52,686 bases of DNA from Archangium sp. (GTDB lineage: Bacteria; Myxococcota; Myxococcia; Myxococcales; Myxococcaceae), in NCBI GenBank assembly GCA_030695565.1, contig JAUYRZ010000020.1, positions 1 through 52,686 on the forward strand. Reading direction: 5' to 3'. A program made the translations under genes and the position numbers. The notes under the pieces are model-generated. The model was not told where the DNA came from and did not search any database. It worked only from the letters and a program-made list of their open reading frames with translations. Every line of letters begins with the position of its first letter. Position 1 is the stretch's first letter. Positions 12,750 to 39,780 of the stretch are shown here, piece by piece.

Positions 12750-13015
12750 ATGGGCCCGCAGCGGCCAGCGCTCCGGGGGCAACAGGCAGGGACCCGTGGC
12801 TCCACGCTCACTTGGGTTGAGACCGAGACGGGCGTACGCCGAGAGACGGCGAGCGACTACCTGAAGGCTGCAGGGCGTGGCCGTTCGAGCGCCTGGGCGG
12901 TGGGGACGGTCAAACAAAACCGGCCGATGAAGTGACCACCGACTCTGGCGACCCCGGAGAGGCAAAACCGGCCAACGAAGTGACCGCGGACCTCTTGAAA
13001 CCGGCGCAGCCATAC
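12750..13015 (+). pseudogene. istA: IS21-family istA transposase N-terminal relic
   Basis: The frame 12750-12935 contains LTWVETETGVRRETASDYLK, the helix-turn-helix segment typical of the N-terminus of one branch of IS21-type IstA transposases. After about 12905 the match shifts frame: KPADEVTTDSG and AKPANEVTADLLKP (to about 13010) correspond to the linker that follows in intact copies, here partly duplicated. The DDE catalytic domain, istB and recognisable element ends are missing. The relic therefore records a past insertion that was later truncated and frameshifted. The family assignment rests on motif memory; a similarity search would settle it. Confidence 0.65.
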
Positions 13016-13121
13016 GTGCTGCTGACGCCGTGCTGCTGACGCCGTGCTGCTGACGCCGTGCTGCTGACGCCGTGCTGCTGGCCGTGCTGCTGGCCGTGCT
13101 GCTGGCCGTGCTGCTGACGCC
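13016..13121. repeat. Minisatellite of 14- and 12-base units
   Basis: Eight tandem units: four of GTGCTGCTGACGCC (13016-13071), three of GTGCTGCTGGCC, which lack the AC (13072-13107), and one more 14-base unit (13108-13121). The mix of 14- and 12-base units shifts the reading frame along the array, so it does not encode a regular peptide repeat. It begins exactly where the istA relic stops. Confidence 0.9.
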
Positions 13122-13476: not shown

Positions 13477-14763
13477 ATGCTCAAGCGCCTCGCCTGTCTG
13501 CTCTTGCTGTTCATCTCCGTCGCAGCCGCAGCAGAAGATGCGAAGGCCAAAGCCGCGCGAGAAGAGCTCGAGCGCCAGCTCACGCAGATGGTGGGCAAGC
13601 AGCCGACCAAGGTGCGCATCGACTTCATCGGCCTCGAAGATCCCAACTACAAGATCGAAGAGGCCAGCTTCGAGCTCGACGGCCGCAGCTTGCGTACGCC
13701 GCTGCTCAGCCAACTGTCGGACGACGGCACGCACCTCATCTGGAACGGTGACGTCACGCCGGGCAAACACACCGTCAAGGTGCTGGTGGTCTTCTACAAC
13801 AACGCCAGCGTGGTCTTGAGCGACGAGGGCGGACACAAGTGGAGGGTGGGCGGCGACGTCTCCTTCGACGTGAACTCCGGCATCGAAGTGCGGGTGCAGG
13901 TCAAGCCGACGCGCGACGAAAAGCAGACCGAAGTGGCCAAACGTTTCAAGCTCGCGCTGCCCGCTCAGCCGGTGATGATCGCCACGCTCGATGACGGGAA
14001 GATGCCCGACGCGATGCCCAAGCCGGTGATCGCAGTGGTCGACGCGGGTGTCGCCGGGCCCACCGCGGAGCAGTTGGCCGAGGTCGCCGCGCAGGAGAAG
14101 ACCCAGAAGGCCGCCGCAGCCGCTGAAGCAAAGCGCCTGGCCGACGAAGCGAACAAGCAGAAGGTGGCAGACGCGCTGGAAGCCAAACGCGCGGCGGACG
14201 AAGCGAAGAAGCAGAAGGCCGCTGCAGCGCTCGAGGCCCGAGCGGCTGCTGCCGCTGCGAAGAAGGAAAAGGCGGCCGCTGCCCTCGAAGCCAAACGCGC
14301 CGCGGCTGAGGCGAAGAAGCAAGCGGCCCTCGATGCGGCCGAAGCGAAGAAGCAGAAGTCAGCTGAGGCGCTCGAAGCGAAGCGCGCCGCTGATGAAGCG
14401 AAAAGGCAGGCAGCCCTCGACGCGGCCGAAGAGAAGAGGCGCCTCGCTCAGGCCGCGCTGGACGCGAAGAACCCGCCTGCAGTGGTCGCCGTCGAACCTG
14501 CGGCCGATGCAGGCGCGGTTGCCGTAGCCGTGGCCGAGCCGACCGATGCCGGGGTCCCCGAGCCCATCGACGCGGGCGCCCCGGTTGAGGTCGTGGCGGC
14601 CCCAGTCGACGCGGGGACTCCGGCCCCAGTTGCTGCTGCGCCTGCCGCCGCAGAAGACGGCCCCCCGTGGTTGATCATCGGCGGAGCGGGTGCCCTGGCT
14701 GCGCTCATCTTCCTGATCGTGGTGGCCCGGCGCCGAGCCCGTCCACCGACCCTCGACGACTGA
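13477..14763 (+). CDS. Exported Ala/Lys-rich coiled-coil protein with C-terminal anchor
   Basis: A 428-residue protein. The ATG at 13477 gives a clean signal peptide (MLKRLACLLLLFISVAAAA); the frame is open upstream to 13381 but without coding character. Residues about 20-170 form a globular periplasmic part (VRIDFIGLEDPNYKIEEASF, HTVKVLVVFYNNASVVL). Residues about 195-360 consist of Ala/Lys/Glu repeats such as EAKRAADEAKKQKAAAALEA, predicted to form a long coiled coil. Asp-Ala-Gly motifs (PTDAGVPEPIDAGAP) follow. A final transmembrane helix (WLIIGGAGALAALIFLIVV) ends in a basic tail, so the protein is anchored in the inner membrane by its C-terminus. Function unknown. No strong ribosome-binding site is seen. 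Confidence 0.75.
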   Translation: MLKRLACLLLLFISVAAAAEDAKAKAAREELERQLTQMVGKQPTKVRIDFIGLEDPNYKIEEASFELDGRSLRTPLLSQLSDDGTHLIWNGDVTPGKHTVKVLVVFYNNASVVLSDEGGHKWRVGGDVSFDVNSGIEVRVQVKPTRDEKQTEVAKRFKLALPAQPVMIATLDDGKMPDAMPKPVIAVVDAGVAGPTAEQLAEVAAQEKTQKAAAAAEAKRLADEANKQKVADALEAKRAADEAKKQKAAAALEARAAAAAAKKEKAAAALEAKRAAAEAKKQAALDAAEAKKQKSAEALEAKRAADEAKRQAALDAAEEKRRLAQAALDAKNPPAVVAVEPAADAGAVAVAVAEPTDAGVPEPIDAGAPVEVVAAPVDAGTPAPVAAAPAAAEDGPPWLIIGGAGALAALIFLIVVARRRARPPTLDD

Positions 14764-19726: not shown

Positions 19727-19780
19727 GGCCCCTCACCCCGACCACCCCGACCCTCTCCCCGCTTCGCAGGGCGAGGGGGA
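19727..19780 (+). repeat. GC-rich palindromic repeat, copy A
   Basis: Begins GGCCCCTCACCCCGACC and ends GCTTCGCAGGGCGAGGGGGA. It contains a small internal duplication (ACCACCCCG) absent from the other copies. The half CCCTCTCCCC pairs with GGGCGAGGGG around GCTTCGCA. It occupies essentially the whole spacer between two convergent stop codons and may act as a terminator for both. Confidence 0.85.
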
Positions 19781-19782
19781 CT

Positions 19783-27946: not shown

Positions 27947-30037
27947 ATGGCGGAGTTCAAGCTGGTCAGCGAGTACATACCCCGGGGCGATCAACCCACG
28001 GCGATCAAGGAACTCACCGAGGGGGTCAACCGCGGTGACGGTCACCAGGTGCTCCTGGGCGTCACCGGGTCAGGCAAGACGTTCACCATCGCCAACGTGA
28101 TCGCGAACACCGGCAGGCCTGCGCTGGTGATCGCCCACAACAAGACCCTCGCAGCTCAGCTCTACGGGGAGTTCAAGCAGCTCTTCCCCCAGAGCGCCGT
28201 CGAGTACTTCGTCAGCTACTACGACTACTACCAGCCCGAGGCGTACGTGCCGTCGTCGGAAACGTACATCGAGAAGGATTCGTCGATCAACGAGCAGATC
28301 GAGCGGATGCGCCACTCGGCCACGCACTCGCTGCACACCCGCGATGACGTGATCATCGTCGCCTCGGTCAGCTGCATCTACGGCCTCGGTACGGCGCGCG
28401 CGTACGTGGGCATGGCGGTGAAGCTGGTGAAGGGCGCTGAGCTGGGCCGCGATGCGCTCATGAAGCAGCTGGTCGATTGTCAGTACGAGCGCAACGACAT
28501 GGATTTCCACCGCGGCACGTTCCGGGTTCGCGGAGACACGGTGGAGATCTTCCCCATCTACGAAGAGGAACGCGCCGTTCGCGTGGAGTTCTTCGGCGAC
28601 ACCGTGGAGCGCATCAGCGAGTTCGACCCGCTGCGTGGCGTGACCCTGGGTGACGTGGCGAAGATGACCATCTTCCCGGGCAGCCACTACGTCACCGAGC
28701 CCGATCAACGGAACATCGCCATCAAGCAGATCCGCGTGGAGCTGCAGGAGCGGCTGGCGGAGCTCAAAGGGCTGAACAAGCTCGTCGAAGCGCAGCGCCT
28801 CGAGCAGCGCACCATGTTCGATCTCGAGATGATGGAGCAGCTGGGGTTCTCCAACGGCATCGAGAACTACTCGCGGCACCTTTCAGGGCGCGCGCCGGGT
28901 GAGCCGCCGCCGTGTCTGCTGGATTATTTCCCCCAGAACTTCCTGGTGATCGTCGACGAGTCACACCAGTCGATTCCGCAGATCGGCGCGATGTATCGCG
29001 GTGACCGCAGCCGCAAGGAGACCCTGGTCGACTTCGGCTTCCGCCTGCCCAGCGCGATGGACAACCGGCCGCTCAAGTTCACCGAGTGGGAGCAGTTCGA
29101 AAAGCAGATCGTCTACGTGTCGGCGACTCCGTCGGAGTACGAGATCAACAAGGCGCGCGGGGTGGTGGTCGAGCAGGTCATTCGGCCCACCGGGCTGCTC
29201 GACCCGATCATCGAGATCCGCAAAGCGGGCAACCAGGTCGACGACCTGCTCGAAGAGATCCGCGTTCGCGCGAAGAAGAACGAGCGGGTGCTGGTCACCA
29301 CCCTCACCAAGCGCATGGCGGAGGATCTGACCGAGTACTACGCGGAGGTCGGCGTGAAGGTGCGCTACCTGCACGCGGACATCGACGCGATCGAGCGGAC
29401 GGCGATCATCCGCGATCTGCGCAAGGGCGTGTTCGACGTGCTGGTGGGGATCAACCTGCTGCGTGAAGGCCTCGACATTCCCGAGACGTCCCTGGTGGCG
29501 ATCCTGGATGCCGACAAGGAAGGGTACCTGCGTTCGCACGTCTCGCTCATTCAGACGATGGGGCGCGCGGCTCGGCATCTGGAGGGCAGGGCGATCCTGT
29601 ATTCGGACTCGATCACCGACTCGATGAAGAAGGCGATCGAGGAGACCGAGCGGCGGCGCGTGATTCAGCACGCTCACAATCTGAAGCACGGGATCACGCC
29701 GACGCAGATCAAGAAGGCCATCACTGATCTGAGTCAGTTTCTGTACGACGGTGATGCGATGGCGTTGCCGATGGCGGCGGATGCCGGCGCGGTGGTGTTG
29801 TCGAAGGATGAGATCGCGTCGCTTATCAAAAAGAGCGAGGCGAGCATGATGGCCTTCGCGGATGAGATGGAGTTCGAGAAGGCGGCGGTGGAGCGGGATC
29901 GGTTGATCGTGCTCAAGGACATGGATCTGGGGCTCAAGCCGGCGCTGAGATCGTTGCTGTCTGAGTCGAACGAGGGCGATGTCGAGCGCGGAAATCAGCG
30001 CAAGAAGCAGCCCAGGAAGTACCGGCGGAAACGCTAG
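27947..30037 (+). CDS. uvrB: Excinuclease ABC subunit B
   Basis: The damage-verifying helicase-like subunit of nucleotide excision repair, 696 residues. It starts with [17 protein letters not shown] and has Walker [15 protein letters not shown]. The beta-hairpin region reads [19 protein letters not shown]. Walker B is [12 protein letters not shown], and further helicase motifs are [19 protein letters not shown] and [11 protein letters not shown]-terminal UVR domain ([20 protein letters not shown]) binds UvrC. Everything expected is present. The TAG stop at 30035-30037 is immediately followed by the DUF559 element, beyond which uvrC starts. Confidence 0.97.
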
Positions 30038-30426
30038 CCCCCCTCTCCCTGCGAAGCGGGGAGAGGGTCGGGGTGAGGGGCCACCTGCAGTGCCGACCAG
30101 ATCACCTGCAACACCGCTTCAAACTCGAACCAGATCTCGAAGTTCCAGAACCGAAGGACCCGCCATCCATGTCGTCTGAGCCACGCATCACGCCTGAGGT
30201 CGCGCGCACGCGTGTCAGGATCCGCGTGCCCTCCGCCATCGACCTCGACGACGACCTTTCGAGCCGGGCAGGCGAGGTCGGCGATCCAGGGGCCTATTTG
30301 GTGTTGCCGACGGAAGCGGAATCCGGTCGCTCCGTTTCGAAAGACCGTCCACAGGGTCTCTTCTTCTTCGGTCTGGTTGCGGCGAAGGGCTCGGGAATAC
30401 TCGACGTTCTTTCGGTTGCGGCGCAT
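30034..30426 (-). CDS. DUF559 endonuclease-like protein
   Basis: A 130-residue protein of the DUF559 family, related to very-short-patch repair and other PD-(D/E)XK nucleases. Motifs typical of the family are [33 protein letters not shown] with the metal-binding Asp, [10 protein letters not shown] with the Glu/Asp pair, and [15 protein letters not shown]. Its last 15 residues ([15 protein letters not shown]) are translated from the palindromic repeat, and its stop overlaps the uvrB stop on the opposite strand. The gene is antisense to the uvr genes and enclosed by inverted repeat copies. Function is unknown: a role in moving the element is possible but not shown. Confidence 0.8.
30038..30082 (-). 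repeat. GC-rich palindromic repeat, copy B (left end)
   Basis: Reverse complement of the common form: starts CCCCCTCTCCCTGCGAAGCG on the plus strand and ends GGTGAGGGGCC. It forms the left end of the DUF559 unit and encodes that protein's C-terminus. Confidence 0.85.
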
Positions 30427-30459
30427 GCCTCGACGGATTTGCAGGTGGTGTGCCTGGTG

Positions 30460-30504
30460 GGCCCCTCACCCCGGCCCTCTCCCCGCTGGCGCAGGGAGAG
30501 GGAG
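30460..30504 (+). repeat. GC-rich palindromic repeat, copy C (right end)
   Basis: GGCCCCTCACCCCGGCCCTC then CCCCGCTGGCGCAGGGAGAG and GGAG. The loop differs from copies A, B and D (CTGGCGCA instead of CTTCGCA). Its GGGAGAGGGAG end lies at Shine-Dalgarno distance from the uvrC start at 30510. Confidence 0.85.
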
Positions 30505-30509
30505 CGAAG

Positions 30510-32426
30510 ATGACGATCCTCGAGGAAAAAATCGACGCACTGCCGAACCAGCCCGGCGTGTACCTGATGAAGGATCGCGCCGGTCGGATCATCTACGTCG
30601 GCAAGGCGGTCAACCTCCGCAACCGCGTACGCAGCTACTTCAACCGCGGCTCCTCCGACTCGCGCGCCTTCGTTCAACTGCTCGACCGCGTGCTCGTCGA
30701 CCTCGAGACCGTCGTCGTGCGCAACGAGAAGGAAGCGCTCCTCCTCGAAAACGAGCTGATCAAGAAGCACCGCCCGCGCTTCAACATCCAGCTGCGCGAC
30801 GACAAGCAGTACCTTTGCCTGCGCCTCGACACCTCACATGAATACCCGCGCCTGGAGACGGTGCGCAGGCCCCACCGCGACGGCGCGCGCTACTTCGGCC
30901 CGTACTCCTCGGCCTCGTCGATCCGCGAAACGTTGCGCGTGGTGAACCGGTTCTTTCAACTGCGCACCTGCACCGATCACTCCCTGGAGACCCGCAAACG
31001 CCCTTGTCTGCTTCACCAGATCGGCCGCTGCCCCGCCCCCTGCGTCTTCCCGGTGCCCGTCGACGACTACCGCCGCAACGTCGAGTCGGTGACCCTCTTC
31101 CTCGAAGGCCGCAGCGGGCCCCTGGTCGAACAACTGCGCGAACGCATGAAGGCGTCGGCGAAGAAGCTCGAGTTCGAAGACGCCGCCCGGCTGCGTGACC
31201 AGGTCATCGCCCTCGAACGCAGCCTCGAGCGCCAGACGATCGCCACCACCGACACCATCGATCAAGACATCTTCGGCCTCTTCCGCGAAGCCGATCGCAT
31301 CTGCATCTACATCCTCTACGTGCGCGGTGGCCGCATCACCGGAGGCCGGCCGCTGCACTTCACCAGCGACTTCCCCATCGACGAGCTCATCGAGTCACTG
31401 GTCAACCAGTACTACGCCGACGAGAACTTCGTGCCCAAGGAGGTGCTGCTCCCCGCGGCGCCCAACGAGCCCGAGGCGCTGGCCGAGCTGCTCTCCGAAC
31501 AGAAGGGCGAGAAGGTGCGCGTCTTCGTGCCCCAGCGCGGAGACAAGGTGGAGCTGCTGGCCATGGCCTCCCGCAACGCCGAACGTTCGTTCAGCGAACG
31601 CACCCGCACCCGCGAAGAGATCGAGCAGGTGCTGGAGCGGCTCAAAGAACGTCTCCACCTCACCAGGCTGCCGCGCCGCATGGAGTGTTTCGACATCTCG
31701 CACTCCTCGGGCACCTCCATCGTCGCAAGCCAGGTGGCCAGCGTGGACACCGAGCCCGACACCTCGAACTACCGCCGCTACAAGCTCAAGACGGTCACCC
31801 AGAACGACGACTTCGCCTCGATGCACGAGATCCTCTCGCGCCGGTTTCGCCGCGGGCTGGAAGACGGCGATCTGCCCGACCTGATCGTCATCGACGGCGG
31901 CAAGGGTCAGCTGGCCGCCGCGTACGCCGCCATGCGCGATCTCAAGGTCGAGGGCGTCGACATGGTGGCGCTCGCCAAGAGCCACGAGCTCGACACCCTG
32001 CTGCCCGACGAAGGCACCAAACGCAGCCCGGAGCGCGTCTTCCTGCTCGACCGCAAGGATCCCATCGTCTTGCCCCAGACCTCGCCCGAGCTCTTCGCGT
32101 TGACCCGGCTGCGCGACGAGGCCCACCGCTTCGCCATCACCTTCCAGCGCAAGCTCTCGCGAAGGCGCGGCCTGCAGTCGCAGCTCGATTCAGTACCCGG
32201 AGTGGGGGAGACCAGAAGAAAAGCCCTGCTCACCCACTTCGGGAGCCTCAAACGCATCAAAGAGGCCACCGTCACCGAGATCGCCGCGGTGGAGTCGATC
32301 GGGCCCGCCGTGGCCGCGCGGCTCCATGCCTTTCTGCACGCGCCACTCAAGACCGAAGTTGATGAAGATGATTCCGATGACCCCGTGCGTGCGGCATCTT
32401 TGGAGGATGCCGTTCCCAAACCGTGA
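30510..32426 (+). CDS. uvrC: Excinuclease ABC subunit C
   Basis: The dual-incision nuclease of excision repair, 638 residues. The ATG at 30510 gives the standard start ([20 protein letters not shown]); the frame is open to 30450 but that part is only repeat sequence. The GIY-YIG nuclease domain comes first ([20 protein letters not shown]). The Cys-containing region ([16 protein letters not shown]) and UVR motif ([18 protein letters not shown]) that contacts UvrB follow. The RNase-H-like second nuclease has [12 protein letters not shown] and [10 protein letters not shown]-terminal helix-hairpin-helix motifs include [20 protein letters not shown]. The ribosome-binding site GGGAGAGGGAG appears to come from the repeat immediately upstream. 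Confidence 0.97.
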
Positions 32427-33556: not shown

Positions 33557-33600
33557 GCCCCTCACCCCGACCCTCTCCCCGCTTCGCAGGGAGAGGGGGA
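33557..33600 (+). repeat. GC-rich palindromic repeat, copy D
   Basis: GCCCCTCACCCCGACCCTCT then CCCCGCTTCGCAGGGAGAGG and GGGA. Nearly identical to the reverse of copy B. It lies between two convergent stop codons (33538 plus, 33609 minus). Confidence 0.88.
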
Positions 33601-38229: not shown

Positions 38230-38253
38230 GTCCCAAAGTTCCAGTGTCGCAGT

Positions 38254-38284
38254 GGCCCCCTCTCCCCGAGGGAGAGGGCAGGAG
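38254..38284 (+). repeat. Short relative of the palindromic repeat, copy F
   Basis: GGCCCCCTCTCCCCGAGGGA then GAGGGCAGGAG. It lacks the TCACCCCGAC head and has a shorter loop, but keeps the CCCTCTCCC/GGGAGAGGG palindrome. It follows the zinc-ribbon gene and could end its transcript. Confidence 0.65.
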
Positions 38285-39736: not shown

Positions 39737-39738
39737 TT

Positions 39739-39780
39739 GGCCCCTCACCCCGACCCTCTCCCCAGCGGGGAGAGGGGGAC
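39739..39780 (+). repeat. GC-rich palindromic repeat, copy E
   Basis: GGCCCCTCACCCCGACCCTC then TCCCCAGCGGGGAGAGGGGG and AC. The loop is shortened (AG instead of GCTTCGCA), giving a near-perfect stem. It lies between ppiD-like and maf, both on the minus strand, and its head supplies the probable maf Shine-Dalgarno sequence. Confidence 0.85.

Follow-up and report, generated by a model that had tools for sequence, protein, structure and literature searches.

What lets ribosomes start on uvrC in this stretch of DNA, 52,686 nucleotides of an Archangium sp. contig that are referred to here as the window? The initial annotation had noted that the only purine-rich sequence ahead of the uvrC start codon is the end of a repeat copy, and had proposed that translation of a core repair gene depends on an inserted repeat. 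Reading of the sequence bore out the observation: GGGAGAGGGAG (30494-30504) is the sole purine-rich tract just upstream of the ATG at 30510, and it terminates a repeat copy. The term repeat copy was incomplete, since the copy is one end of a cassette that bears a nuclease gene. Comparison of sequences makes it probable that this end belongs to a mobile cassette that rewired the uvrC start, and the pairing of the repeat with the nuclease is more important than the uvrC leader itself.

Organization of the uvrB-uvrC junction

The cassette is ∼460 bp long and fills the exact space from the uvrB stop to the uvrC start. Its parts (TM, the repeat identified below; SD, Shine-Dalgarno) and its neighbors are as follows.

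27947 to 30037, plus strand: uvrB, 696 amino acids, with UvrB_inter, UvrB, and helicase domains; its TAG stop (30035-30037) directly abuts the cassette
30034 to 30426, minus strand: DUF559/YcjD-like nuclease gene, 130 amino acids, antisense to uvrBC (PF04480, E = 8.8e-32)
30041 to 30080, minus strand: left TM repeat, with the hairpin CCCTCTCCC-TGCGAAGCG-GGGAGAGGG beside the uvrB stop; TCG follows, and after it the head GGGGTGAGGG(G), toward the DUF559 gene
30450 to 30452, plus strand: alternative in-frame GTG start, giving 20 extra residues that read through the TM; without support from the UvrC family model
30461 to 30502, plus strand: right TM repeat, in inverted orientation to the left copy, with the head CCCCTCACCCC, a short linker, and the hairpin CCCTCTCCC-CGCTGGCGCA-GGGAGAGGG, whose end points toward uvrC
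30494 to 30504, plus strand: SD-like tract GGGAGAGGGAG, composed of the 3' arm of the right TM hairpin and two further bases, 5 nt from the ATG
30510 to 32426, plus strand: uvrC, 638 amino acids from the ATG at 30510; the start overlaps the TGA (30511-30513) that closes an open frame through the TM

The last residues of the DUF559 protein are encoded by the left TM, and CTAG at 30034-30037 is a shared stop, providing TAG on the plus strand for uvrB and TAG on the minus strand for the antisense DUF559 gene. TTAA plays the same double role in two relatives (G003 and G005). Because one 4-nt site stops both genes, the cassette gene borrows the stop of the host junction. The repeat search of the window had recorded the right copy as family D5 plus the inverted pair I5 (30055-30082 and 30460-30487, 96%). 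The uvrC start is preceded by CCCTCACCCCGGCCCTCTCCCCGCTGGCGCAGGGAGAGGG and then AGCGAAG-ATG, or, in longer form, by GGCCCCTCACCCCGGCCCTCTCCCCGCTGGCGCAGGGAGAGGGAGCGAAG-ATG. In a protein started at the ATG at 30510, UvrC family model TIGR00194 aligns from residue 4 onward, so this start fits the family, and the UvrC domains also agree with it. The only Rfam match in 29950-30650 was below the cut-off and due to chance.

Identity and genomic distribution of the repeat

The repeat is the known G/C-rich intrastrand-triplex motif (TM or PIT motif; Holder et al. 2015, PMC4666352), with the three parts CCCTCTCCC, GGGAGAGGG, and GGGGTGAGGGG present in both uvrC-side copies. Set against Table 1 of that paper, as far as its available text goes, both copies contain CCCTC[TG]CCC, GGGAGAGGG, a short second loop, and GGGGTGAGGG. 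The TM-ECO motif described in the same available text has the plan CCCTCTCCC-loop-GGGAGAGGG-NNN-GGGGTGAGGGG, is intergenic, and forms some inverted pairs; likewise, the window genome has the repeat in high copy number, in intergenic positions, and with some copies in inverted pairs. The biophysics of single-stranded-DNA triplexes in PMC4666352, in its available part, is confined to the motif of E. coli. Palindromes of Enterobacter sp. 638, CCCTCTCCCXX(X)GGGAGAGGG (PMC2869309), form the same hairpin and number 100 copies there, often at the 3' ends of genes; unlike the window cassette, they have no link to a nuclease gene described in the accessible portion of that report. The CGTC-tagged REPs were also considered and rejected as an identity; their stems, in the accessible description (PMC3733652), start with AT, and the window repeat does not.

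Exact matches to the repeat core numbered 327 in the window genome, versus 0 for the reversed control pattern; a loose pattern gave 552 matches against 243 for its reversed control, which is not independent. The 221 bases around the repeat matched 51 places in the genome, and besides the query itself only the repeat and at most ∼25 nt of flank were covered. Gene context was scored in a 1.25-Mb sample in which genes were called by a simple in-house, SD-weighted method, with the 923 better-scoring of 1037 calls kept. The sample held 93 full TM copies, 73 of them between two genes by these crude calls: 40 were in convergent gaps, although such gaps make up 12% of the intergenic space, 27 were between co-directed genes, and 6 were in divergent gaps. 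A further 19 lay within called genes, and 1 was unassigned.

Of the 27 co-directed copies, 16 were within 15 nt of the upstream stop codon, and 21 had the hairpin on that side. The uvrC copy is oriented opposite to these usual co-directed copies, with its hairpin toward the start codon. The exact 11-mer GGGAGAGGGAG was within 22 nt of 2 of the 923 predicted starts, uvrC included, and a TM-type purine arm was at most 22 nt from the called start in 10, 7 of which are GTG or TTG starts that are possibly miscalled. A general rule that TMs supply ribosome-binding sites is unsupported by these 10 genes in 923, and, because co-directed TMs hug the upstream stop codon, supply of an SD sequence is not a general habit of the repeat.

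More TM copies, some of them partial, are present in the window at 19743-19782, 33557-33597, 38250-38276, and 39738-39776. Two other repeats, a tandem one of 14 nt (CGTGCTGCTGACGC) and a spaced one of 54 nt, lie at 13015-13084 and 14086-14432.

The enzyme encoded by the cassette

The antisense gene product matched PF04480 (DUF559) with 109.7 bits, versus a cut-off of 20.6. Its matches to PRK09767 (5.5e-26) and Vsr (9e-7) were both under their cut-offs, and its score with the Vsr mismatch endonuclease model TIGR00632 was 29.2 bits, versus a curated cut-off of 97.85. A fold model (pLDDT 83.5) resembled NGO0050 (Z 15.8), the homing endonuclease domain of I-Bth0305I (Z 13.3), and Vsr (Z 11.2), so that the protein as modeled has a Vsr/EDxHD-like endonuclease fold. 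The fold alignment (A2) took in 59 of the 80 DUF559 loci (best 80 of 552 relatives); of the rest, seven were excluded because the match contained a stop and 14 were not entered. E22, D50, E61, D63, and H67, which we take to be the EDxHD residues, are among its invariant columns (60 sequences).

The Vsr-like protein VsrA of Caulobacter (CCNA_02930; PMC12907096) has the same DUF559 domain and belongs to the PD-(D/E)XK superfamily. According to the available text, VsrA is responsible for the SOS response in cells lacking a cytosine methyltransferase and is proposed to be a mismatch-repair enzyme; unlike the window protein, it has no repeat association described there.

Comparison with relatives at the uvrB-uvrC site

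Counting the window genome itself, 59 of 60 genomes gave a uvrC match, and 30 uvrC loci, the window locus among them, were read. The cassette is present between uvrB and uvrC in four of the five same-genus genomes with a uvrC match (the window genome, G000, together with G003, G004, and G005), in a gap of 454-472 nt, and the cassettes have diverged. In the fifth (G002) there is no cassette and uvrC begins 6 nt past the uvrB stop; a further genome of the genus (G001, 79% complete) gave no uvrC match. Of the 26 non-cassette loci, 20 had a measurable gap, which was at most 17 nt in 18. The exceptions were G022 (35 nt) and G015, in which the gap is 542 nt because an unrelated stretch, without a TM and with its own AAGGAGAGGG, lies there. 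These junctions confirm the part of the initial annotation according to which the repeat is an insertion. A TM-like hairpin was found at most 600 nt upstream of uvrC in 5 of the 30 loci. The G022 locus (L018), in another genus, has a lone CCCTCTTCCCCTGGGGAGAGGG palindrome between uvrB and uvrC, with the leader GGGGAGAGGGAG before the ATG, and is apparently an independent case.

UvrC is 87-92% identical among the cassette carriers, including 91-92% for G004 versus G000 and G003. In contrast, the DUF559 protein of the G004 cassette is 38-45% identical to those of the other three carriers and 72% identical to a second DUF559 protein of its own genome, which marks the G004 cassette, by sequence identity, as one exchanged at the same site. 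At the level of sequence, comparison of the relatives thus establishes that an insertion took place, that the junction exists in an empty form, that TMs form the ends of the cassette, and that G004 has a very different cassette at the same site.

A comparable site exists in genus g8, where six genomes share one position beside an Hsp70 gene (for G062, it falls on two contig ends). It is occupied by DUF559 cassettes of two highly dissimilar kinds (L051-L053 and L045-L047); the flanks, aligned separately, are 92-97% identical, and the DUF559 proteins of G060 and G032 are 60% identical. The gene on the other side of this site resembles clpX by eye. In G012, the DUF559 frame is interrupted by a stop and both TMs are kept. 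A TM-DUF559-TM cassette in G017 (L049) lies near a gene resembling RadA by eye, another repair gene.

The shortness of the non-cassette junctions suggests that coupling of uvrC to uvrB translation was likely the ancestral state and was lost through the insertion. Any signal in the last codons of uvrB is now ∼470 nt from uvrC owing to the insertion.

The putative uvrC start signal

Leaders of cassette-free relatives were compared, in line with the comparison that the initial annotation had proposed. Besides their short junctions, they had mostly weaker pairing with the anti-SD sequence: 23 of 26 were weaker than -9.2 kcal/mol, versus -9.2 to -11.4 kcal/mol in the four cassette leaders, with the anti-SD taken as the usual 16S tail, which may differ from that of the window genome. 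The best pairing lies 7 nt from the start in G000, 4 nt in G004, 3 nt in G005, and 0 nt in G003, where it reaches the start codon. In the sequence, the outward arm of the right TM hairpin occupies the SD position of uvrC.

The same tract is, in fold predictions, the 3' arm of the repeat's own hairpin. Opening the region from -18 to +4 was predicted to cost 19.8-23.3 kcal/mol in the four cassette leaders and 21.7 kcal/mol in G022, versus a median of 9.6 kcal/mol in the 26 non-cassette leaders, G022 among them (P = 0.0003, uncorrected for relatedness), and the four cassette leaders were among the five highest predicted costs of 30. With the 5' arm held, the cost was 7.8 (G000), 8.5 (G003), 9.9 (G004), and 16.7 (G005) kcal/mol. 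The stability of the hairpin is not exceptional for its composition, as 15 of 200 shuffles fold as well as 30460-30540; for the G005 leader, whose arm differs by one base and whose best fold departs from the simple hairpin, 184 of 200 do. Because the tract is an arm of a hairpin that is costly to open, it is probably shut unless melted. The outer arm of the repeat thus looks like a start signal for uvrC yet is predicted to fold that signal shut.

Dependence of uvrC translation on the repeat, the central proposal of the initial annotation, is plausible from the sequence but only partly supported. An inserted origin, the position of the tract as the only SD-like stretch, and good anti-SD pairing speak for it, and sequestration in a hairpin with a high predicted opening cost speaks against it. 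Dependence on an SD sequence as such is weakened further, since GGAG, GAGG, or AGGA occurs in the SD window of 365 of the 923 predicted genes in the window genome sample, so that an SD may not be required, and since the in-frame GTG at 30450 and coupling through the ATGA overlap offer other routes. The C-strand of the TM is free of stops. Of the frames that cross it, one closes on a TGA that overlaps the start of uvrC (ATGA or GTGA) in each of the four cassette carriers, and another reads in frame into uvrC, which makes either coupling or an N-terminal extension possible. For G004, the 180 nt ahead of the TM offer only TTG starts in these two frames, so coupling would be weak there. RNA unfolding is one of two models for translational coupling in the available text of PMC12548453.

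If UvrC were extended from the GTG at 30450, upstream of the repeat, GGGAGAGGGAG would be coding sequence rather than a ribosome-binding site. All four cassette genomes keep an open reading frame across the TM, in register with uvrC, and a GTG is found at -60 in G000, -54 in G003, and -54 and -60 in G005; SD-like pairing before these codons was -8.5, -9.9, and -10.7 and -6.7 kcal/mol, respectively, and opening costs of 12.3, 14.6, and 12.5 and 20.1 kcal/mol were mostly below those at the annotated start. Several points make such an extension quite unlikely. The UvrC family profile matches from residue 4 of the product of the ATG at 30510; the spacing at the GTG codons is poor in G000 and G005 (0-1 nt), although it is 8 nt in G003; and G004 has only a TTG at -99 that is almost without an SD (-1.1). 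Open frames are, moreover, common in GC-rich DNA, and the TM C-strand is without stops.

It is also unlikely, if less strongly so, that the purine tract is incidental, with the hairpin silencing uvrC or with uvrC relying on leaderless-like initiation, helicases, or an internal promoter. As predicted, the hairpin would be a strong obstacle to initiation and could leave the tract nonfunctional: opening costs of 20-23 kcal/mol, which together with that of G022 rank at the top of the 30 leaders, would fit a shut-off of uvrC, and the scarcity of SD motifs among genes of the window genome would fit an incidental tract. However, uvrC is intact and 87-92% identical among cassette carriers, so it is probably expressed, and the anti-SD pairing leaves a spacing to the start codon of 7 nt in G000, 4 nt in G004, and 3 nt in G005, though 0 nt in G003.

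The TM-DUF559-TM arrangement across bacteria

Fourteen strong DUF559 loci were found in the family (E of 2.2e-28 or better). Inverted TMs flank the gene on both sides in 11, the window locus included; two of the others are at contig ends with one visible TM, and one has no TM near. In a scan of one genome per species, the best 80 of 552 relatives, from many phyla, were taken as DUF559 loci (L160 is the G003 cassette itself); four with flanks of <250 nt were dropped and 76 were analyzed. Among these, pyrimidine/purine hairpins were present on both sides in 39 of 76 loci and on at least one side in 62, versus 1 and 14, respectively, among 213 control windows displaced from these genes. The head pointed toward the gene in 27 of the 51 upstream hairpins and away in 4, and toward the gene in 24 of the 50 downstream hairpins and away in 5, the rest being unclassified. 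In an alignment test of the same 76 loci, inverted matches exceeded the 99% control level in 54; direct-orientation matches did so in 40, being also frequent because the repeats are palindromes. Left and right repeats of one locus matched in subtype, being far more alike than shuffled pairs (23.9 versus 14.5; 0 of 2000). TM-like repeats of another subtype (CCTTCCCC...GGGGAAGG, the head being, for example, GGGATGGGGG) were seen in matched pairs around DUF559 in L168, L179, L195, and L219.

Abundance of the repeat also follows the enzyme. Among 96 family genomes, all 12 strong DUF559 carriers had at least 93 TM cores, whereas 3 of the 84 others had at least 20 (Fisher, 7e-13); G096 (46 bits, partial match, 0 TM) was counted as a noncarrier in this comparison, and counting it as a carrier gives 12 of 13 versus 3 of 83. 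By genus, 3 of 3 carriers and 3 of 23 others were TM rich (P = 0.008). In 82 further genomes of the phylum, the median hairpin count was 3.5 in DUF559 carriers versus 0 (P = 1e-4, one-sided), and at least 3 hairpins were present in 9 of 16 carriers versus 10 of 66 others (P = 0.001), both values being uncorrected for relatedness. G013, G008, G015, and G154 are TM rich without a strong DUF559 match, and G038, G129, G175, and G177 have DUF559 without TM hairpins.

That TMs merely pile up near stop codons and DUF559 genes by chance, with no element involved, is very improbable. Such accumulation would fit the preference of TMs for convergent gaps and the surroundings of stop codons, as well as the frequent reading of DUF559 C termini into a Pro-rich, TM-like tail, but it does not account for hairpins on both sides in 39 of 76 loci (best 80 of 552 relatives) versus 1 of 213 controls, mostly with heads inward and with left and right subtypes matched, or for the genome-level association within and outside the family.

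The best reading of the arrangement is a TM-DUF559-TM element that resembles a REPtron with another enzyme, its mobility being inferred from sequence. In REPtrons, REP repeats flank a RAYT transposase (Di Nocera et al. 2013, PMC3733652). The window element shares with them, as they appear in the available text, high-copy hairpins, inverted flanks of an enzyme gene (at the window locus and 10 further of the 14 family loci), and closeness to stop codons; unlike them, it has a Vsr/EDxHD-like enzyme rather than a Y1 HUH transposase beside the repeats, and no GTAG tag. As a mobilizer, a Y1 transposase was rejected: the window genome has no match to PF01797 at E ≤ 0.001, and matches occurred in 5 of 15 TM-rich family genomes, four of the five being weak, and in 8 of 81 others, with Y1_Tnp not found in 10 of the 15 TM-rich genomes.

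A candidate mobile element and its proposed effect on uvrC

Taking the evidence as a whole, we favor, with moderate confidence, insertion of a TM-DUF559-TM element at uvrB/uvrC, with the TM arm acting as a hairpin-gated start and DUF559 helping TM cassettes move. An element of ∼460 bp (TM, DUF559 gene, and inverted TM) would have inserted precisely between the uvrB stop and the uvrC start, in an operon whose uvrC probably relied until then on reinitiation or on coupling from uvrB for its translation. The arm that pairs well with the anti-SD is, by energy prediction, sequestered in its hairpin; initiation at the ATG at 30510 would use it once the hairpin is melted, and uvrC output would otherwise be low. 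Melting would most simply be achieved by ribosomes translating the stop-free TM frames, one of which ends on the ATGA/GTGA overlap. The DUF559 enzyme may help to copy or move TM-ended cassettes through a nick or break at TM-containing DNA and gene conversion, and such elements could be a source of dispersed TM repeats.

A broader proposal, which we put forward tentatively and at somewhat less than even confidence, concerns TM/PIT repeats as a widespread class of dispersed bacterial repeats for which the literature covered names no mobilizer. They would form the two ends of a mobile element of a new class, powered by a Vsr/EDxHD-type nuclease (DUF559) and copied from one TM site to another. With the outward GGGAGAGGG arm that is part of every TM hairpin, such an element, on landing between operon genes, could leave the downstream gene a ready-made, hairpin-gated ribosome-binding site, as proposed for uvrC. 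Many TM copies here bracket a DUF559 nuclease gene and one forms an SD-like tract, features that differ from TM-ECO as presented in the available part of PMC4666352, in which mobility functions are stated never to have been found in the gene contexts of the E. coli motif copies. The spread of TM/PIT motifs is an open question in that text; a repeat-nuclease-repeat arrangement that recurs in many kinds of bacteria may explain it, and the subtype-matched pairing with one nuclease family gives a testable candidate. In a literature search that mostly lay outside subscription papers, no paper joined DUF559 with inverted repeats, and the pairing appears to be unreported within the literature covered.

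Free-standing homing endonuclease genes of T4-like phages, such as mobE between nrdA and nrdB (PMC2988022), likewise place a nuclease gene between neighbors, and the accessible text describes hairpins that sequester ribosome-binding sites and overlapping stop/start arrangements there, as at the window locus. The mobE-type hairpin controls the endonuclease gene; here, the putative control is of the downstream host gene, and the nuclease is antisense. The one trait of homing elements seen here is polymorphism of the site (empty in G002, a distant cassette in G004). At the uvrC site, a tight operon junction, the cell may have tolerated a parasitic insertion because the element, while taking away the likely coupling of a core repair gene to uvrB translation, would also supply a substitute start signal, at the cost of a hairpin gate.

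For annotation, the Pro-rich tails of DUF559 proteins may be treated as read-through into TM repeats. YcjD of E. coli K-12, a DUF559 protein, ends in SPSP, like TM-encoded tails elsewhere. At its locus (L256), one TM lies ∼165 nt downstream with the head away and the 67-nt upstream gap has none, a weak case that was not counted; ycjD is possibly a decayed cassette.
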